Positions 1-60,645 of a stretch of DNA of 64,000 nucleotides are shown here, piece by piece; position 1 is the stretch's first letter; every line of letters starts with the position of its first letter. Source of the stretch: Prosopocoilus inquinatus (Eukaryota > Arthropoda > Insecta > Coleoptera > Lucanidae); contig CM069878.1 in the NCBI GenBank assembly GCA_036172665.1, positions 22,247,501-22,311,500 of the forward strand, in the 5' to 3' direction. Both the position numbers and the translations under genes were made by a program. The notes under the pieces are model-generated. The model was not told the DNA's origin, did no database searches, and was given only the letters and a program-made list of their open reading frames with translations.

Positions 1-2105
1 GACTGAGCTTCACGTTTCTTTTTTATTTTGATGCCAACTTAGTACCCGAGTTTCTACAATTGTTAACACCATATTTATTACTCTCTGTAGTTATTTATAA
101 TCAAGAAGTTTTATTTGCACAGTGGATTTTGTCTGCTCTTGATACGAAACAAAAATTCTAATAAAAACGATCAATATAGTCAAATCAAGGGAAAAAAAAC
201 AGTAGGGAAAAAGAAATGCGCACCGCATAGAAAACTAGAGATGGATGTATTACAGATAACAATTTTAATGAAATGCAATTATTTAGGAACAACTATAACG
301 AGGAAGAACGAATAGTGGACGAAAGGAGAGGACATAGTGTTTGAAAACCCAAAGATACCAACCAGTGTAAGAATACTAAAATAAAGTATCCCTAAACCTT
401 TCAAAAAAACCCTTTCTCTTTTAGAAAGCCAACCGCAAGAAGAGTGAGCGCTGAAAACTTGAGAAAGAAAGAGAATATCGTACTTTATCTCTAAATGTAG
501 TAAGTAAATTGTCTTATCGGTGTTATCATTAAATATAAAATGAAAACTACGTTTATCCGAAGAAACTGGCAAATCATTCAGTTTATTTGTCACTTATTAT
601 TAGTGAACTCGACATGCAGCAGGTAGCCATAATTAAAAAAATATAAAGCCTGTTTTACATTATCACATAAAATAGTACCAGAAAAAAGTTATATCAAATT
701 TTAGAATAGTGTAACACAGTAAAACAAAAGGTATCATAAAATCGTATAGAAACAGATGTATTTGTGTCCGTTTTCTTTTACTTTTTTCTCGTAACTTAAA
801 AATTAGTATAAAGTAAAACAGCCTTAACGTATACCACATTAGTTACATTTTACTAAATATATGATGCGCACTTTTCAACAATAAATGGGTTTTTAAAGTT
901 TCTGATTGAATAATTTGAAATTTATTCCAGCTAAACAAAAAAAAGCAAATACATTCACGTTAGTGTGTAAACCAATGAGGGCTGACACATCGCAAATAGT
1001 TAAAAAAGCATTATTTTGCTATTTTTATGCAGAACAGATATCGAAATAGTTCACATTAATTCTAAACAATAGTATGTGTATGTTAAACCCGCAACCCATA
1101 AAATAAACGATGCAATACAATAAATTTACACGTATTACTCTATTTGGTTTGGGAACGTGAACGGCACCGAGATCAGCAGACCGCACAGATGGAACAGAGA
1201 CAGCGGATACGTGGGTATGTACGCCATTTTTAGCCTGGCTATTGCTATCATCAAATCAAACACAACGGTGAAAGATACCGGGAAATGTATGATTATTGGA
1301 CACGAACTCGGCATTATGCCTTTCTAATTGAGTTCGCGCCAGCCTGGGTCGTATCTCTAAAACTTTTTCTGTACCCACGAATATAAAATATACCGTTACA
1401 CTTTGTTGCTGTGATGAGCGAAGTATTAAATTAATTGTATGGTAGGAACTGTGATGGCAAATCTATGTCAACTTTCATTGCCATAAAATACGAAGATGTA
1501 TTTCATTAATATTCGTCTGTCAGTCGTTATAGCGATGCTTTTCAATACGACCACTACAAGTACTACTTTATGACGCGATTTTCTCAGCTTGTTAGGAAAA
1601 TGCATAACAATATATTGCTATAAGTTATTTTCTCCGATTTATTTCCAGTGTATCATATTCCTCTTCGTTCCTAACATTCCGTATTTGAAATATGATCCTG
1701 AAATTCATAGGCCAGGATTTGTATTTTTTATGCCTTTTTGTGATTAAATAACTTCTGATCAATAATAAAAGTAGTTTGGCTTATACTAGCATATATTTAA
1801 TCATTTTATATCTGATTTATCTAGAGAAATAATAATTACTGATGGTAGATGGAGGTGGTGAACAAAAACCGATATTTGATTATGTTTCCGAAATTCTTTT
1901 CATCAAAACATCAAAACGAACTTGTATTGAACATGCGTTATATTTATACCAAACAGTATATCTGTGCCAAGTCTTATGGACATAATCCTCAGCAAAACAA
2001 TTCAAGTGTGTAGGTTCCACTTAGCTGACTTTTAATCATTGACAATTCATTTTTTCCTCCCTCTTGCATTGTTCTCGTTACTTGAGCCGGTATTTCAGTC
2101 GTGGA
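1..2105. other. AT-rich stretch without a recognisable gene
   Basis: Both strands are broken by stops; the longest open frames are about 66 and 104 codons and show no recognisable domain, biased composition or start context. I see no repeat with a partner elsewhere in the window. It is best read as intergenic or intronic DNA. Confidence 0.6.
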
Positions 2106-20584: not shown

Positions 20585-21900
20585 AAAGTTTCTGGAAACG
20601 GTATGAAATTTGGTAAACGGTATCATTGTTTTTCGAAGTATTCGCCTTTGACGTCAATACACTTTTGCATACGCTCGAACCAATTTCAAAAGCACGTTAT
20701 CCACTCTAAAGATGGTACCTCAGAAACCAGAGTCCGGAATGTTACAACCGCTGCTTCAGCCGACGAAAATTGCTCACCACGCATTTTATTTTTAATATTT
20801 GGGAACGAAAAGAAATCATTAGGTGATAAATCAGGTGAATATTGACAATGAGTCATTAATTCACCATTTTTGTTGGACAAAAAATCAACTGTTTGACGGG
20901 CTGAGTGAGAGCTGGCGTTGTCATGATGGAGAATAATCCGTCGATTTCGATTGTTTCTTCTTATTTGATCGATGACTTCCGGCAAACAAATTGTAGTATA
21001 CAATCAGCATTCACGGTTTCTCGATCCTCTAAAGCCAGAATTGCTACATGTCCAGTTAAACCAAAGAAACAATCATTTGCTTCGCACCACTGCGTGAACG
21101 GACAAATTTTGTTGGTTTTGATTCATTTTGAAATACCCAAGCGGTAGCTTGTTGTTTACTTTGTGGCTCGTACGAATAGATCCACGTCTCGTCACCAGTA
21201 ACAATGTTATAAACTAAACTTGAACGACCTCCATTGAATTTATTAAGCAATTCTTCGCACCATTTGACACGACCCTGCTTTTGCGCTTCTGTTAAATTGT
21301 GTGGGATCCAACGACTGCAAAACTTTCGTACGTTCAAATCATCATGCAAAATCTGGTGTATTGCTTTCATGTCAATGCGTAAGGATGCTTGAATCTCACG
21401 GTACGTCACATGTCGATCTCGCTCGAGCATTTCGCGCACAGCATCTACAATAGTGGCAACAAGATGGACGACCTTCACGAAATTCACTGAGAGAATTACG
21501 TCCACGCTGGAATTCGGCAAACCAATTATAAACACTGCTCCATTTAACACATAACATAATGCTGCATTTAAAAAAGTTGAAAACAATTGAAAATCTCGAA
21601 AACCTGATAGTCATTTGCTTTTCCTTCGTGAAACTTCACATAAAAAAGTTAACTATTGTAGCCATTTCCCGTGAACACCGAGATTTTGTTACGAAATCAT
21701 TTATAAAAGTAGTAGGCTTTGGAAGATGATATTTTAGAGATATAATTAATTTGACAACCTGAACGGGATACAATGACAAAAAGTCAAACAATCCATTTAA
21801 AAAAATTTAAATCAATTGAAAATCTCGAAAACCTGATTGTCATTTGTTTTTTTGGAAGTACCATAAAATCGAAAATGAAATGTCCTAAAACTTTCCTAAT
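20585..21900 (-). pseudogene. mariner (DD34D) transposase, nearly complete but broken
   Basis: Minus-strand fragments in order: VKWSSVYNWFAEFQRGR with FREGRP (HTH region, about 21520-21440), then VREMLERDRHVTYREIQASL. After these come WIPHNLTEAQKQGRVKWCEE (about 21313-21255) and TGDETWIYSYEP (first catalytic D, near 21190). Next are YTTICLPEVIDQIRRNNRNR, RIILHHDNASSHSA (second D, near 20920) and YSPDLSPNDFFSFPNIKNKM (third D, near 20818), with about 34 residues between the last two. The C-terminus MQKCIDVKGEYFEKQ lies near 20630-20675. WVPHNLTE and YSPDL.P signatures identify mariner. It is split by frameshifts, for example near 21003 and 21450-21480, and the N-terminus before the WSSVYNW block is unreadable. 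The 3' edge (CTGGAAAAGTTTCTGGAAAC, 20580-20599) and an inverted TCCTAAAACTTTCCTAAT near 21886-21903 may be the two terminal repeats. Confidence 0.9.
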
Positions 21901-21969: not shown

Positions 21970-22810
21970 TCTATGGGAGGAGCATTTCTGCTTATTACTA
22001 CTTATGTATGTATGTATCTTGGCTCGTGGGACACGTGCACGGTTCTTCCCTATTTAATTTACCCTATCTCTATTCCTCAAGCGATAATGCCATTTCTATT
22101 ACTATAATTTTGACAGAATAATTATTGTGTGGTATAATTGCCGCTGCCTTCTGTATTTTGTTAATACAAATTAACTACCGATTTTACTCAAAACACTTTT
22201 TTAAAAACGTATTAGTAATTAATCGATATAATTTATAACTGACTAACATAAGAATGAAAAACTTCTACGTTACGTGGTAATGCTGAATAAAGAAAATTAA
22301 GGGAAAATCGGCGGTTTCCGGGGTGTCACCGGGATGTATCTTGCTGATGTAATGGGAAAGTCGCCCTATAACTTAATAACTCTTGTGTGTTTATTTCTGT
22401 TACACACATTAGGACTTTGTTCAGCAGAGAACGAGTGACTAATTCCATAATTTACATGATTGGGTGGAACAATTAAGAAGACAAAGTACGTTCAAAACTA
22501 AATTCAACATGAGAACGTTTGGATTGGAGTACCTACTGAAAATATAATTAAATTTCACACTTCAGCACTTTTGTCTAATAATCCGAGCAGTGCAGCTTAA
22601 GAAGAGAAGAATGCGGTAAAAATTAATGATTTACAAATGAATGAATTCCAAAAAATGTTTTGTAAGAAAAAACTGGAATCAGTGGCGTAACTAGAAATCA
22701 AACCGCCAGGTTGCAAAACTTTTACTAGCCCCTTTTAATAAACAAAATCACATAAAAAAGCGAAACTGAATAAGGGTTACCATTCACATGAGATAGAAGT
22801 GCTATGCATA
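21970..22810. other. No gene; short TATG repeat at 21999-22017
   Basis: A small ATGT/TATG tandem tract and AT-rich filler. A CAGTGGCGTAACTAG word near 22680 resembles the start of several DNA transposon families, but no matching end was found. Confidence 0.4.
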
Positions 22811-22998
22811 ATGCATAATGAAAGTTTTTAAAAAAATTTTGTGCAAATCGTTTTTGATTGCAATTTGTCTATCCTACTGCAATGTCAGGTCAAAAAGCGA
22901 TCGTAAGAGTCGCTATTTTATCTGTTCATCACTCTTACATCGCAATTGCGAATAAATTGGACAAGTCGTTTTCGTTTGCAGTGGGAATGTCGAGCTAC

Positions 22999-23047
22999 GT
23001 CTCTGCTGAAGAAGCCCCAAGCAGGACTGAAATAGCTGTCCAGAGGC
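22999..23047 (+). ncRNA. Type I hammerhead ribozyme motif, copy 1
   Basis: Stem I 5' strand GTCTCTG (22999-23005); core CTGAAGA (23006-23012, CUGANGA consensus); stem II AGCCC (23013-23017) with GGACT (23024-23028), one mismatch; core GAAA (23029-23032); stem III palindromic half ATAGCTGT, where sister copies have ACAGCTGT; cleavage base C at 23040. Stem I 3' strand CAGAGGC (23041-23047) pairs with GTCTCTG over 7 bp including one T-G wobble. The C-to-A type stem II mismatch and the stem III change suggest weakened activity. Confidence 0.75.
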
Positions 23048-23309
23048 TGCTCGAGGTTTTTACTGCAATCAAAAACGATTTGAACAAAATGTTTTTAAAA
23101 ACTTTCATTATGCTTTGACAGCAAGCATGGCCGCATTGCATGGGGGACTTATTAGGAGCAAATCCCGCTTCAATTTGTCTATCCTACTGCAATGTCAGGT
23201 CAAAAAGCGATCGTAAGATGTCGCTATTTTATCTGTTCATCACTCTTACATCGCAATTGCGAATAAATTGGACAAGTCGTTTTTGTTTGCAGTGGGAATA
23301 TCGAGCTAC

Positions 23310-23358
23310 GTCTCTGCTGAAGAAGCCCCAAGCAGGGCTGATACAGCTGTCCAGAGGC
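23310..23358 (+). ncRNA. Type I hammerhead ribozyme motif, copy 2
   Basis: GTCTCTG (23310-23316), CTGAAGA (23317-23323), perfect stem II AGCCC/GGGCT (23324-23328 and 23335-23339), then GATA instead of GAAA (23340-23343), ACAGCTGT palindrome, cleavage base C at 23351, CAGAGGC (23352-23358). The A-to-T change in the invariant GAAA should abolish cleavage. Distance from the cleavage base of copy 1 is 311 nt, the predicted monomer length. Confidence 0.75.
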
Positions 23359-23559
23359 TGCTCAAGGTTCTCACTGCAATCAAAAACGATTTGCAACATT
23401 TTTTTTAAAAACTTCATTATGCTTTGACAGCAAGCATGGCCGCCTTGCATGGGGGACTTATTAGGAGCAAATCCCGCTTCAATTTGTCTATCCTACTGCA
23501 ATGTCAGGTCAAAAAGCGATCGTAAGATGTCGCTATTTTATCTGTATATCTTTTAACCT

Positions 23560-25094: not shown

Positions 25095-25175
25095 ATCAAA
25101 CGAACAGAAAGAACACTCAACGTTTCACTATCGCTTGATAGCTTCCGGACGATAGTGAAACGTTGAGTGTTCCTT
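25095..25175. repeat. Head-to-head pair of hammerhead-like units (family A)
   Basis: GAACACTCAACGTTTCACTA (25111-25130) faces ATAGTGAAACGTTGAGTGTT (25152-25171) with TCGCTTGATAGCTTCCGGACG between. On the minus strand this reads GAAGCTATCAAGCGATAGTG-AAACGTTGAGTG, a stem II hairpin followed by GAAA-ACGT-T-GAGTG. It matches single copies at 42149-42190 and 50637-50678. Flanks (CCGTTTAAAATTG, ACAAATTTCATCGG, CAAGAGT) also match 50699-50740. The CUGANGA box is damaged here. Confidence 0.6.
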
Positions 25176-25399
25176 CTCTCCGTTTAAAATTGAAAAATTA
25201 TTTTCTCACAAATTTCATCGGTCAAGAGTAGACGTCAATTATTTTACATATTTACAAGCTTACCTTTTTGACACTTTTACACTTGGTTGCAAAATAAAGC
25301 TGTGATTAAGAAAAAAATCGGTGCTACTGTAAAAAGTCTTTTATAATGTTATTTATATGCTGTCAAAGTGTGAAGGCAATTAACAAAACTTACGCGAGA

Positions 25400-29950: not shown

Positions 29951-30131
29951 CATATTCAAAAGTATATGCAACTTTCTTAGCAAACCACATCGTCTTAACA
30001 TTATTACTGAAATATCTAATAAAATTTGATTCGAATTAGATTGCATTTCGAATCAAATTTTATTAGATATTTCAGTAATAATGTTAAGACGATGTGGTTT
30101 GCTAAGAAAGTTGCATATACTTTTGAATATG
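29951..30131. repeat. Perfect palindrome with 85-bp arms
   Basis: The left arm 29951-30035 and right arm 30047-30131 are exact complements; the 11-base loop is TTAGATTGCAT. GATTGCAT also occurs just left of the left arm (29941-29948), so the loop repeats the flank. This suggests fold-back template switching during replication or repair. There are no mismatches, so it is recent or maintained by conversion. Confidence 0.9.
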
Positions 30132-32309: not shown

Positions 32310-32705
32310 CAAACAAACAGGGCTGAAACAGCTGTACAGATGCTGCTTGAGGTTTTCACTGCAATAAAAAACGATTTGCAACAAACTTTTTTAAAACTTT
32401 CATTACGCTTTGACAGTAAGCATGGCCGCCGTGCATGGGCGACTTATTAGGAGCAAATCCCGCTTCAATTTTTCTATCCTACTGCAATGTCAGGTCAAAA
32501 AGCGATCGTAAGATGTCGCTATTTTATCTGTTCATCACTATTATATCGCAATTGCGAATAAATTAGACAAGGCGTTTTTGGTTTGCAGTGAAGACGTCGA
32601 GCTAGTCTCTGCTGATCAAGCCCCAAACAGGGCTGAAACAGCTGTACAGACGCTGCTCGAGGTTTTCACTGCAATCGAAAACTATTTGCAACAATTTTTT
32701 TTTAT
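32310..32705 (+). mobile_element. 310-bp hammerhead unit locus, 1.3 copies
   Basis: A partial unit starts inside stem II (32316, CAGGGCTGAAACAGCTGTAC) and is followed by a full unit beginning CAATTTTTCTATCC at 32466 and ending near 32700. Predicted cleavage bases at 32336 and 32646 are 310 nt apart. The locus differs from 22.8 kb by a few percent to 10 percent and uses A rather than C at the cleavage base, so it is an independent insertion. Confidence 0.8.
32605..32651 (+). ncRNA. Type I hammerhead ribozyme motif, copy 3
   Basis: GTCTCTG (32605-32611), CTGATCA (32612-32618, G-to-C in an invariant base of CUGANGA), stem II AGCCC/GGGCT (32619-32623 and 32630-32634), GAAA (32635-32638), ACAGCTGT palindrome (32638-32645), cleavage base A at 32646, then CAGA-CGC with stem I shortened to 4-5 bp. 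The damaged core suggests an inactive copy. Confidence 0.7.
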
Positions 32706-32709
32706 AAAG

Positions 32710-36654: not shown

Positions 36655-36764
36655 GGGCCGGTTGCTCAGTCACTCTTTAATGTTAGCTTCAGTTAGCTTC
36701 CATCTATTCCTAGGTAACAAAAAAACTGAAGATTAAAGTGAAACTGTGACTGAGAAACCCGGCC
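36655..36764. mobile_element. Harbinger-type MITE (110 bp), TAA duplication
   Basis: Ends GGGCCGGTTGCTCAGTCAC and GTGACTGAGAAACCCGGCC, with CTTTAATGTTAGCTTCAG / CTGAAGATTAAAG inside. TAA lies at 36652-36654 and 36765-36767. GGGCC-type ends with a 3-bp TWA duplication are characteristic of PIF/Harbinger elements. Confidence 0.8.
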
Positions 36765-36765
36765 T

Positions 36766-36866
36766 AACAGTCATGAGCGACCTCTAGTAAAATTTATAAA
36801 AAAATGTATTTAATAGAATTAAATACATTTTTTTATAAATTTTACTAGAGGTTGCTCATGACTGTT
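36766..36866. repeat. Hairpin with 49-bp arms and 3-base loop
   Basis: Left arm 36766-36814 (AACAGTCATGAGCGACCTCT onward) and right arm 36818-36866 are complementary with one mismatch (GCGACC versus GGTTGC). The loop is AGA. It adjoins the right arm of the larger foldback directly. Confidence 0.85.
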
Positions 36867-36989
36867 GTTTTTAAGTTGTCAATAGTTTCATCATCATTTA
36901 CCTCTTACAAAAATTTCATCAATTCGGTTGAAGGACTCTAACACATTAAAAAATTGAAAGTTCTAAAAATGTCTCATTTTTACACCACT

Positions 36990-42505: not shown

Positions 42506-42746
42506 TTAATTGAAATTAACCTCTGCCCGCAATAATTTATATATTTCGTAAGTATTTCAGCAGCTAAGCTGCCATCTTCAGTACGCTACCAACTTAAAAG
42601 CACTAAAAAGAACTAAAAACAACCTAATCATCGTTTTTAGATCTTAGTGCTTTTAAGTTGGTAGCATACTGAAGATAGCAGCTTAGCTGCCGAAATACGC
42701 ATCTATGGGTATATAAATTATTGTGGGCGGAGATTAATTTCAATTA
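42506..42746. mobile_element. Inverted pair of Penelope-type terminal units (family B)
   Basis: The unit CTTTTAAGTTGGTAGC, ACTGAAGATRGCAGC, TTAGCTGCCGAAATACG, then TATATAAATTATTGTGGGCG and GAGATTAATTTCAATT occurs on the + strand (42645-42746). Its complement occurs at 42506-42605, arranged head to head around AACAACCTAATCATCG. A single + copy lies at about 50480-50590. Each holds CTGAAGA, a stem GGCAGC-TTA-GCTGCC and GAAA-TACG. Tail-to-tail or head-to-head terminal units are a known habit of Penelope-like elements. Confidence 0.55.
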
Positions 42747-42879: not shown

Positions 42880-44640
42880 ATTTAAAAGATTTACAAGATT
42901 TGATGGTGTACGATATCAACTCAAGCATTTACTACTTACCTGCAATAACTGAAATAAAGAAAGGGCTCTTGCTGTAAATGTACACGAGGCTTTTAATTAT
43001 CGTTGCTAATGAAAATTTACTTCTGACAAGCTGTTTTCAGGAAACTTAAGAGCTGGCCTCCATTCAGAAATAAGAAGTTATAACAAAGCTCACTTTATCC
43101 GCATAATTTCTCAAGGTGTGCAATAAATTTCAATTAGAAGAAACACCGCAATCGACGTGCATGTTTTTGCTTGTAAATTTATTCAAGAGGTAAGAGAATC
43201 TCATTAGAAAATATTTCAGGCAATAACAAATGAAACATGTTGCTACATTTAATAAGATTTTCACTTTCTGCAGAGGGCATTTACGAGTGCATTACACTCA
43301 TGTAGGCAAGAAGATAATCAGGAGACAGTATTTTATAACAGAATTTTTTTATTAAATATATTTTGTAGAAAAAGCAATTTCGTCCAAAGTTCCTTAATAT
43401 GATTATTAATACCTAAAACAGCTCATATCTGCTAAATATGTTTGCGAAGTTTGTGCATTTTCCGCAAGTTTCCGTTAAAAGTTTACCCTTATAAAAGTTT
43501 AAACGTGTACTTGGCAGTAATAATGCAGTATATGAGATACTTCCTGAGTCGTACAGAGGAATTTGTGCCCTGTTACTTTATATTATATAATTCAGGAGAA
43601 GTCGTTAATGATTCGTGACGCCATCATCAAACATTCATCACAAGTCTGGCCTGAAATACGAATGAGCAAAAGCAATTGAGTGGCGAAATAAGAAGAAAAA
43701 AGATAAGGCTTGAATGACAAGATGAAACCAAGCGTTTCGCGTAAAGACACTAATAACTTATTCACCAGAACCGTCAAGACATTACTAGAAATTTATCGTC
43801 AACGAAGCATTTTCAACAATGCATCGCGATAAATATTTGAAATGTCGTCTGCTAAGTTTCGCGCCGAGTACAGACTGTAGCAAACTAATATAAGACGAAT
43901 GTTTTTCCGTCACCAGAAACTCGTTTATTTAACGCAAAAGAATGGCAAAGTAAATTTTTGGTCGGTGTTCGCAGCGAATACGCGGTAATGAATCTTTATC
44001 GCCTGCGAAAAACGTAACTATTCCCCGTTTCAGGCTGAAATTGCTTTCTGGGAAGATTTGTGCAGAGAGCTGAAAACAAAGCTACGTGTAATTTACGGAA
44101 ATTGGTGCTCCGTAGCCGACGGTATTAGGTCCCCGCAACTACCTTCCCCTAGATTTTATATGATATGCCTTATTAGCAGACGAAATTACTAAATAATTTA
44201 CACTAGACTTACGTATGGATTTGCCCTTTTAATTTCGAGAGCCTGGCTCTTTCACTTGTAAAATATTCATGAAATTAAATTATACGCATAAACACTTCCA
44301 TTTGAAATTAATGAAGACATGAAAACTGGAATACTTTCACTTGTATTATTATAAAAAAATTCTAGTTATAATTACGAAAAATGTGTTTTTTCTTTCAAAA
44401 TGCACAAACAAGTTTTTAAAAATATTAATAACGATTAAAGCCTGACGATCCAGAAATTGCCAGGCTTTGATAATGCTCGAACCTCTTACCTCTTATAATG
44501 AATCGTTGGTTATACAATGGCTCTGATAAATAAAAATGAAGTGATTGTTTAAAGTAAAAAGTACAAGCTGAAGTAATAGCTCTGAAGGAAAAGGTGGTAG
44601 GATATATCGATTTATAAGTACAATCTTTTGAACAGATAAA
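42880..44640. other. No gene; 43820-44160 CpG-richer and repeat-free
   Basis: Nothing repetitive is detected. The 43820-44160 stretch has CpG words (GTTCGCAGCGAATACGCGG, GTAGCCGACGG) and TTTATCG/CGATAAA cores and could be conserved non-coding DNA. Confidence 0.3.
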
Positions 44641-44647
44641 ACAGAGA

Positions 44648-44880
44648 CATCCTATGACCGCTTTTTGACCTGACATTGCAGTAGGATAGACAAACTGAAG
44701 CGGATTTGCTCCTAATAATTGCGAATAAATTGGACAAGCGGTTTTTGGTTTACAGTGAGAATGTCGAGCTACGTCTCTGCTGATGAAACCCCAAACAGGG
44801 CTGAAACAGCTGTACAGAGGCTGCTCGAGGTTTTCACTGCAATTAAAAACGATTTGCAACAAAATTTTGTAATACAATCT
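44648..44880 (+). mobile_element. 310-bp hammerhead unit locus with an inversion junction
   Basis: From 44719 to 44880 the sequence follows the unit (TTGCGAATAAATTGGACAAG through the ribozyme to AAAACGATTTGCAACAAAAT). Immediately before it, 44648-44718 is the complement of another unit part (GACCTGACATTGCAGTAGGA, GAAGCGGATTTGCTCCTAAT). The join at 44718/44719 is therefore an inversion, as at the left edge of the 22.8-kb array. Confidence 0.8.
44773..44821 (+). ncRNA. Type I hammerhead ribozyme motif, copy 4 (best preserved core)
   Basis: GTCTCTG (44773-44779), CTGATGA (44780-44786, the commonest natural form of the core), stem II AACCC/GGGCT (44787-44791 and 44798-44802, one A-C mismatch), GAAA (44803-44806), ACAGCTGT (44806-44813), cleavage base A at 44814, CAGAGGC (44815-44821) pairing with GTCTCTG. 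All catalytic-core bases are intact, so this copy is the best candidate for self-cleavage. The ACAGCUGU stem III is too short to close on itself and would pair between two molecules or two tandem units. Confidence 0.8.
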
Positions 44881-44899
44881 TTTGCTTTTTACTCCAAAG

Positions 44900-46339: not shown

Positions 46340-46735
46340 GTAGGAAAAAACTGTATTAAGAACATGTGCCGCATTCTTTTACTTTTGAAATTAACGTCAA
46401 AACGCATCTGAGGGATATTAAAATTTCAGTAAGACTCGAAAAAAGTTTATTATTTTGTTATAAATAATAAAGGTACATCAAAACTACTGTAATAAACTAA
46501 AAGTATGGTCAAAAAAGACAACATACAGAAAAAATGTATAGTAAAAAACTATATTGAGAACATGTGCTGCATTTTTTTACTCTTTGAAATTAATGTCAAA
46601 ACGCATCTGAGGGAGATTAAAATTTCAGTAAGACTCGAAAAGAGTTTATTATTTTGTTATAAATAATAAAGGTACATCAAAACTACTGTAATAAACTAAA
46701 AGTATGGTCAAAAAAAAACAACATACATGTATAGT
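46340..46735. repeat. Tandem duplication, 198-bp unit, two copies
   Basis: AACATGTGCCGCATTC (46361) and AACATGTGCTGCATTT (46559) mark a 198-bp offset. The units share AACGCATCTGAGGGA, AAAATTTCAGTAAGACTCGA, TAATAAAGGTACATCAAAAC and AAAGTATGGTCAAAAAA with few differences. It is non-coding and fairly recent. Confidence 0.85.
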
Positions 46736-55970: not shown

Positions 55971-56065
55971 AGTTTCTAAATGTTTGATTACGTCTGTCTA
56001 AACTTGCAATATTTGATAATTAAGTTTTTCCTATTTTCAAAACGATGTTATTGTTTTAGAAAAAT

Positions 56066-56190
56066 TTTTGTGCAAATCGTTTTTGATTGCAGTGAGAACC
56101 TCGAGCAGCCTCTGGACAGCTGTTTCAGCCCTGCTTGGGACTTCTTCAGCAGAAAAAAAGCGATAGTAAGATGTCGCTATTTTATATGTT
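56066..56190 (-). mobile_element. 310-bp hammerhead unit fragment, minus strand
   Basis: The + strand GTGCAAATCGTTTTTGATTG, GTGAGAACCTCGAGCAGCCT, TTTCAGCCCTGCTTGGGACT is the complement of the unit's ribozyme part. After CTTCTTCAGC the sequence jumps to AAGCGATAGTAAGATGTCGC, a + oriented unit part, so again two unit pieces meet in opposite orientation. Confidence 0.75.
56108..56155 (-). ncRNA. Type I hammerhead ribozyme motif, copy 5
   Basis: On the minus strand: a short stem I 5' strand TTTCTG (56155-56150), CTGAAGA (56149-56143), stem II AGTCC/GGGCT with one wobble or mismatch, GAAA (56126-56123), ACAGCTGT, cleavage base C (complement of 56115), CAGAGGC (56114-56108). Core bases are intact; stem I is shortened to 4-5 bp by the inversion junction. 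Confidence 0.7.
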
Positions 56191-59852: not shown

Positions 59853-60645
59853 CAGTGCAAATGAATCAAAGACGCTATTTGCTTCACTCTTCTTTGTCAA
59901 TTTCTTCGAGATTAATAAATCATTTTATTTTCTAAAAGAGCCAGAGTGAAACGTAGATAAATTTTCATTACGTTGGTCATCATCATCAGTTTTTTCAAAC
60001 TTGTGATGCAAATGAAGACAAGTGCTACTTAGGGTAATCTTGGAGAAGGGATGTAATCAGATTAAACAATATGTTTATTAAATTAGAAATAATATAAAGA
60101 AGGTTATGAGTCTCTCACATAACACTTAATATTTTCAGCTTCGATGGAATTAATTTGCAAGGTCATCAAACTTGAAGGAAACAAGCTGCAGTAACGTTTA
60201 GGTGTTTTAACTTTATGCACTTTTGGTGTCACTTGCATGCAGAACTGATGTTACTAGATGCAGTGCAAATGAATCAAAGACGCTATTTGCTTCACTCTTC
60301 TTTGTCAATTTCTTCGAGATTAATAAATCATTTTATTTTCTGAAAGAGCCAGAGTGAAACGTAGATAAATTTTCATTACGTTGGTCATCATCATCAGTTT
60401 TTTCAAACTTGTGATGCAAATGAAGACAAGTGCTACTTACGGTAATCTTGGAGAAGGGATGTAATCAGATTAAACAATATGTTTATTAAATTAGAAATAA
60501 TATAAAGAAGGTTATGAGTCTCTCACATAACACTTAATATTTTCAGCTTCGATGGAATTAATTTGCAAGGTCATCAAACTTGAAGGAAACAAGCTGCAGT
60601 AACGTTTAGGTGTTTTAACTTTATGCAGAACTGATGTTACTAGAT
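59853..60645. repeat. Recent tandem duplication, 408-bp unit
   Basis: CAGTGCAAATGAATCAAAGA starts both units (59853 and 60261). Over about 380 bp I see only two substitutions (TCTAAAAGAG/TCTGAAAGAG and ACTTAGGGTA/ACTTACGGTA) plus a loss of about 24 bp from the second unit (GCACTTTTGGTGTCACTTGC part). It is non-coding. A very recent duplication or an assembly artefact from two haplotypes would both fit. Confidence 0.9.

Follow-up and report, generated by a model that had tools for sequence, protein, structure and literature searches.

Retrozymes of a stag beetle mostly have head-to-head arms and are probably inserted as circular RNA by Penelope proteins priming at both cut target ends

A stretch of 64,000 nucleotides from the stag beetle Prosopocoilus inquinatus (contig CM069878.1; this whole stretch is called the window here) contains a tandem repeat with a unit of about 310 bp and a hammerhead ribozyme motif, and it raises the question of how a sequence of this kind becomes inserted into chromosomal DNA. 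The authors who defined animal retrozymes report that these repeats lack any conserved motif that would betray a helper retrotransposon (PMC7761336), and Penelope elements have been put forward as a strong helper candidate on indirect grounds (PMC7229834). From the structure of the copies we consider it probable that the retrozymes of this beetle are inserted as circular RNA by Penelope proteins, which would prime cDNA synthesis at both cut ends of the target.

Four copies of the repeat lie in the window, and their coordinates are given in Table 1. A preliminary description of this DNA, made from the sequence alone, had recognized copy 1 as a candidate insect retrozyme, and this is the right class: the repeat has a type I hammerhead, a unit of ~310 bp, tandem copies, and a genome-wide dispersal with target duplications. 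The three unit starts it had placed in copy 1 are borne out, the third unit being truncated, and the spacing is 310 and 309 bp, with 92-95% identity over the long repeats. Its account was incomplete: it did not describe the arms in inverted orientation, the fixed position of both ends, the duplicated target sites or the connection with Penelope, and its further units extended to the motif in copy 3 and missed copies 2 and 4. In copy 3, no unit position is common to both arms.

Table 1. Positions of the retrozyme copies and their hammerhead motifs in the window; sites A and B are defined in the text.
Feature	Position	Strand	Description
Copy 1, short inverted arm	22810..22862	-	Unit positions 255..205, outer end at site B; 94% complementary to 23064-23116
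Copy 1, long arm	22861..23545	+	Units 22861-23170, 23171-23479 and truncated 23480-23545; ends at site A (unit position 66)
Type I hammerhead motif, copy 1 unit 1	22999..23047	+	Core intact, stem II with a single C.A mismatch; cleavage predicted at 23040/23041
Type I hammerhead motif, copy 1 unit 2	23310..23358	+	Stems paired; GAUA in the core in place of GAAA; cleavage predicted at 23351/23352
Copy 2, single arm	32314..32708	+	Unit positions 159..309,1..241, ends at site B; 89-90% identity to unit 2
Copy 3, inverted arm	44629..44718	-	Outer end at site A (unit position 69)
Copy 3, direct arm	44717..44861	+	Unit positions 85..228; outer end near site B
Copy 3, hammerhead motif	44773..44821	+	Core CUGAUGA/GAAA perfect, A.C mismatch in stem II
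Copy 3, target-site duplication TACAATCTTTT	left 44619..44629, right 44873-44883	+	Read from the sequence; repeat pair 44610-44630 / 44864-44884
Copy 4, arm ending at site B	56054..56153	-	Unit positions 240..143
Copy 4, arm ending at site A	56155..56190	+	Unit positions 32..67
Copy 4, hammerhead motif	56109..56155	-	Only strict-descriptor match in the window; stem I spans the arm junction

The preliminary description had assigned a hammerhead to each complete unit, and the motif is indeed present in both, with predicted cleavage sites 311 nt apart as it had stated; neither motif is perfect, however, since each unit has one defect. Stem II of unit 1 reads AGCCC/GGACU, this unit has AUAGCUGU instead of ACAGCUGU, and the GAUA of unit 2 is a change in the catalytic core. 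The motif in copy 3, which it had also named, has the perfect core but not a perfect stem II. We used a strict descriptor that called for CUGANGA, a stem II of 4-5 pairs, GAAA, a stem III that closes on U, an H as the cleavage-site base, and six paired bases in stem I. This descriptor finds 53 motifs spread over 30 of 40 fetched loci (L001-L040, among which L001, the copy from the window itself, yields no motif), and a single one in the window, in the copy at 56.1 kb, whereas 100 Markov-1 random sequences of 64 kb contain no match. The motifs of unit 1 and copy 3 pass if one mismatch in stem II is allowed, whereas that of unit 2 fails.

Comparison with a covariance model, a check that the preliminary description had proposed, gives a clear match only in a narrow search with an undamaged copy: in a search of 86 bases, an undamaged sibling copy matches Rfam Hammerhead_1 (RF00163) at 25.8 bits (E 7.6e-5), with the runner-up family at 16.3 bits, although the Hammerhead_1 gathering score of 34 is not reached. 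Rfam reported no hammerhead over the whole window at E<=1, and none at E<=10 either within 22950-23450 or in a joint search of four loci; given the score in the narrow search, we attribute this to mutations in the copies and to the larger search space. As judged from its sequence, the repeat has the structure that defines a type I hammerhead (a core between three helices, with stem I open) at a score below Rfam's curated threshold. Its stem III can pair twice (A-U and C-G) around an AGCU tetraloop, and a stem III of two base pairs capped by a tetraloop is described for invertebrate hammerheads (PMC7229834).

An alignment of 129 motif copies from 73 loci, 125 of which have the standard length and cover 67 positions, gives a view of the variation within the motif. 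Among these 125 motifs a second base exceeds 8% at three of the 67 sites alone, namely N7 of CUGANGA, one base of loop II, and the cleavage-site base H17. The N of CUGANGA is A in 82 motifs, T in 34, C in seven and G in two, and H17 is A in 68 and C in 57, with no other base. Hammerheads tolerate variation at N7, at the loop II base and at H17. Because the variation is confined to such tolerant sites, the active source copies seem to have been kept to the ribozyme sequence. Core sites are 1.9% diverged versus 4.8% elsewhere, a difference that is not significant (p 0.24). At each stem position 93-100% of the 125 copies pair, and with stems this nearly invariant, compensation in the stems, the refuting check named by the preliminary description, is without information either way.

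The genome searched comprises 649.6 Mb in 173 contigs. Three queries yielded 1862, 2020 and 651 repeat candidates, and 40 of each were scored; the loci studied are the best-scoring candidates and not a random sample. For the arm analysis, 70 fetched loci together with the window's four copies were split into arms against window unit 2. L001 and L041, both copies from the window itself, are not in the count, nor are L071-L074, which are short fetches; from 90 groups, eight of less than 90 nt, five at a stretch end and two loci with duplicate flanks are likewise left out. Partial matches of 48/49 nt were considered as element ends and rejected; in the window they stop within a continuing unit and are an artefact of how the candidates were cut.

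Among the 75 loci kept, 54 consist of two head-to-head arms with two outward 3' ends and 21 of a single arm; none is tail-to-tail. Arms of more than one unit are common (53 of 136), the longest being 1866 nt or about six units. The 44 full units are 301-315 nt long with about 43% GC (0.40-0.44), and the longest stop-free run in four tripled units is 75-102 codons. Judged by a unit of ~310 nt without its own reverse transcriptase, the retrozyme is not itself a Penelope element; it inserts like one. Three retrozyme loci (L056, L063 and L064) have common flanks, and their copy was probably carried by another repeat.

Inner junctions and arm lengths vary between loci, whereas the outer ends are fixed. 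The outer 3' ends fall at two places on the unit, site A (unit positions 59-79, ~67) and site B (225-255, ~237), with ranges that were set after the ends had been seen: 63 of 129 are at A, 59 are at B and seven are elsewhere. By comparison, three of the 21 outer 5' ends are inside the B range and none is inside the A range. Forty-five of the 54 two-arm loci have one end of each kind (A/B), one is A/A, two are B/B, and six have one end elsewhere; 45 of the 48 fully classed loci are therefore A/B (p 1.3e-10 versus independent choice). The host flanks of the A/A locus, L011, are inverted copies that are identical over 160 bases, and this locus thus looks like a later inverted duplication. Arms ending at A and at B have median lengths of 315 and 217 nt, which do not differ significantly (p 0.13). 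In L071-L074 and in the window at 56054-56190 there is a recurring inner junction near unit positions 138-145 / 13-32, as if cDNA synthesis had preferred stops.

Exact flank repeats of at least 9 bp are present at 26 of the 45 A/B loci, versus 1.0% in flanks shuffled between loci, and in 17 of these 26 the duplication is 12 or 13 bp long. Exact duplications of at least 9 bp were seen at one of 21 single-arm loci and at none of the nine other two-arm loci. The remaining 19 of the 45 A/B loci have no exact duplication of at least 9 bp, and they include copy 1, at which no target duplication was found. The automatic test misses some duplications, as at copy 3, where TACAATCTTTT scored just 5 bp. 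Many flank matches extend a few bases into the arms; in copy 4, a 14-bp flank match, ATGTTATTGTTTTA, overlaps both arm ends.

The same genome contains a Penelope-like element with a closely similar insertion pattern. A genome search for GIY-YIG gave 2232 candidates, 150 of which were scored, all of them above the cut-off and most with equal score. At 149 typed places, neighbours within 10 kb are arranged minus then plus in 47 of 48 cases, minus-minus once, and plus-minus never, and they thus form head-to-head pairs. An intact ORF of 787 aa at L085 669-3032 matches RVT_1 (3.3e-14) and GIY-YIG (9e-7). Most of its protein relatives among the matches listed have RVT_1 and part of them also GIY-YIG, and of the named relatives among those matches, identity is highest for those of Tribolium castaneum (51%, with 56% of the query covered) and Molorchus minor (49%, with 59% covered); a sequence comparison matched no solved structure.

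All 15 measured Penelope loci have one short outer end (532-538 in L084) and one long outer end (571-577), and all 15 have target duplications of 12-15 bp; a sixteenth pair (L104/L105) stands outside the measured loci. The short and long ends are about 39 bp apart, whereas A and B of the retrozyme are ~170 nt apart on the circle. Duplications have a median of 12 bp in the retrozyme (26 loci with at least 9 bp) and of 13 bp in Penelope (15 loci; p 0.06). As the two kinds of loci share the same pattern of head-to-head arms, two fixed ends and a near-equal duplication length, Penelope proteins are the likeliest helper of the retrozyme in this sample. The Penelope-like element of this genome is young; its ends are ~99% alike versus ~93% for the retrozyme loci, and given these values the retrozymes may owe their movement to an older, related Penelope family.

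No sequence beyond chance is common to the Penelope ends and sites A and B, with shuffles being equally good in 64% and 60% of cases, and a visual likeness between site A and the Penelope short end (TCRCTATTTAT) was rejected as not above chance. A candidate minimal type I hammerhead was recognized by eye in the Penelope 3' region (L084 453), with CUGAAGA, a stem II of GGUAAC/GUUACC, GAAA, ATACGTAT and a stem I of four pairs, and it is unchanged in 12 of 12 further ends. An 81-base Rfam search returned no hammerhead at E<=10 for this motif and its minimum-energy fold forms stem II alone, so that it stays a candidate. Between the arms of the three short Penelope loci that were read there are palindromic-looking centres (L075 930-1000, L076 950-1030 and L077 905-1190), as from cDNA fold-back; in contrast, the inner ends of the retrozyme arms do not meet.

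What form of RNA served as the template can be addressed from the folding of the unit and from the arms themselves. When folded as circles, natural units are predicted to form a strongly paired rod, with minimum free energies of -102 to -114 kcal/mol for six units and z-scores of -5.5 to -6.2 relative to shuffles for three. The mean predicted probability of being unpaired is 0.70 at the outer ends versus 0.36 overall, a signal that is matched by two of 309 rotations (four if the stretch is centred on the end). Sites A and B are thereby located in unpaired parts of the predicted circle. That the 310-nt RNA ring is the whole template, with A and B as two landing loops to each of which the Penelope reverse transcriptase attaches one cut chromosome end, is a proposal that we regard as evenly poised.

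Arms of up to about six units cross the cleavage site unbroken, and there is no pile-up of ends at this site, which accounts for three of 98 inner ends (3.5 expected) and none of 21 outer 5' ends. Both observations indicate that a cut linear monomer is not the usual template. Divergence is 5.2% between opposite arms of one locus, 3.7% between units of one arm, and 7.4% between units of different loci. Of 96 comparisons, which are mutually dependent and also cover loci other than A/B, 42 place the partner arm among the nearest 5%, and in 29 no other arm is nearer. One ring per insertion accounts for the likeness of the arms as well as for the A/B rule, and gene conversion between arms could add to their likeness. 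The template spans of the arms also speak to their origin. Of the 40 two-arm A/B loci compared, 17 have arms of which neither covers the template span of the other, so that neither can have been copied from its partner; in six of the 40, including two in the window, no template position is common to both arms. In none of 49 two-arm loci are the inner ends of both arms within 15 nt on the unit (4.9 expected).

These observations suggest the following series of events. A tandem locus would be transcribed, its hammerheads would cut the transcript into 310-nt units, and a host ligase would close the units into circles. A Penelope-type reverse transcriptase/GIY-YIG endonuclease would then cut the target DNA with a stagger of 12-13 bp, and both target 3' ends would prime cDNA on the same RNA circle, using loop A at one end and loop B at the other. 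Either polymerase may make several rounds of the circle, which would yield tandem units, and the two cDNAs would be joined at their stops to yield head-to-head arms. That a ring has one A loop and one B loop would explain why nearly all two-arm insertions are A/B.

Several other explanations have to be weighed against this one, and they differ from it in the template, the number of primers or the helper. An uncut multimeric linear RNA in place of the circle would also yield arms of more than one unit and unbroken cleavage sites, but such a template has several A and B sites, from which we would expect A/A and B/B loci to be common; as they make up three of 48, we think a linear multimer unlikely. 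The mobilizing element might instead be a LINE-type non-LTR retrotransposon acting by ordinary twin priming, with the likeness to Penelope being coincidental. LINEs are known for twin priming and for target duplications of such size, which counts in their favour. The inversions that result from it in LINEs are, however, occasional and close to the 5' end, and one 3' end coincides with the end of the RNA. In our sample two arms with two alternative fixed ends are the rule, as they are at the Penelope loci, and although LINEs are named along with PLEs as possible helpers (PMC7229834), we consider their involvement here quite unlikely. Because the candidate hammerhead of the Penelope element lacks support from Rfam, we have weighed insertion by Penelope proteins slightly lower and the LINE alternative slightly higher.

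A single primer per insertion, with the inverted arm being made by fold-back of the cDNA or by copying of antisense RNA, would resemble the self-priming that has been proposed for Penelope (PMC3846280). The palindromic-looking centres at all three short Penelope loci read fit fold-back, and the containment of template spans is compatible with it at 23 of the 40 two-arm A/B retrozyme loci. Yet fold-back predicts A/A or B/B ends, contrary to what is seen in the 45 A/B loci among the 48 classed, it is excluded at those A/B loci where neither arm contains the span of the other or the arms are disjoint, and the separation of the inner ends at all 49 two-arm loci likewise speaks against it; we judge it distinctly improbable for the retrozyme. 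Least credible of all is an ordinary DNA satellite or hairpin DNA transposon in which a hammerhead-like sequence arose by chance with no RNA step. The tandem units would suit a satellite and the inverted ends are superficially like terminal inverted repeats, but the junctions and arm lengths vary by locus while the outer ends are fixed, and the pattern of variation is hammerhead-like.

Insertion from a closed circle by Penelope proteins can be set beside the systems already described. The beetle repeat has in common with the metazoan non-LTR retrozymes of Cervera and de la Pena (2020; PMC7229834) the type I hammerhead, a unit of about 170-400 nt, tandem copies, a GC content below 50%, target duplications of more than 4 bp and coexisting Penelope elements. 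It differs from them in that 54 of the 75 sampled loci have two head-to-head arms with fixed outer ends; the main text of that paper does not contain the words inverted, twin or priming. The Penelope-like elements with GIY-YIG in PMC3846280 are alike in their head-to-head inverted pLTRs, their partial tandems, a ~31-bp tail that is optional at one inverted end, and short target duplications (8-9 bp in the examples), but unlike the retrozyme they encode their own protein, and self-priming is the interpretation published for them. The W elements of Schistosoma (PMC8490949) are similar as satellite-like repeats, some with type I hammerheads and one with a possible target duplication, although the passages on them in that paper describe neither a head-to-head arrangement nor two ends. 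Plant LTR retrozymes (PMC7229834, PMC7761336) likewise carry hammerheads, and they are non-coding and copied via circular RNA, as is probable for the beetle repeat; they differ in having a type III hammerhead, LTRs and 4-bp duplications, with a Gypsy-type helper proposed. A literature search of titles and the starts of abstracts, with most subscription journals outside its reach, found no paper on a beetle retrozyme.

What is new here is that the way in which the copies are built (fixed ends, the one-A-one-B rule, and 12-13 bp duplications) constitutes such a signature of a helper, and other animal genomes that contain retrozymes can be searched for it straight away. The signature also provides a concrete model for how a covalently closed RNA could become genomic DNA, and a natural system for testing it. 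If the model is true, the retrozyme is a parasite of a Penelope element, and the one-A-one-B rule is direct genomic evidence of insertion from a single closed circle.

Some further features were observed in the sequences examined. A nuclear copy of mitochondrial COX1 at L106 1501-2841 (minus strand) has no stops in the invertebrate mitochondrial code, and many decayed pieces are found elsewhere. A nuclear COX1 copy shares 99% identity with a cluster from the stag-beetle subfamily Lucaninae. In the window, a 184-codon open frame at 21056-21610 (minus strand) resembles a mariner/Tc-type transposase, with a weak match to Pfam HTH_Tnp_Tc3_2 (8e-4) that is below the cut-off. Inverted repeats at 29965-30112, 42555-42696, 25097-25186 and 36752-36881 gave below-cut-off Rfam matches to unrelated miRNA/sRNA families and are possibly hairpin-type transposons. 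There are also two short tandem arrays, a 199-bp unit present 1.9 times at 46341-46727 with 94% matches, and a 408-bp unit present 1.9 times at 59853-60627, which at 99% matches looks like a recent tandem duplication.
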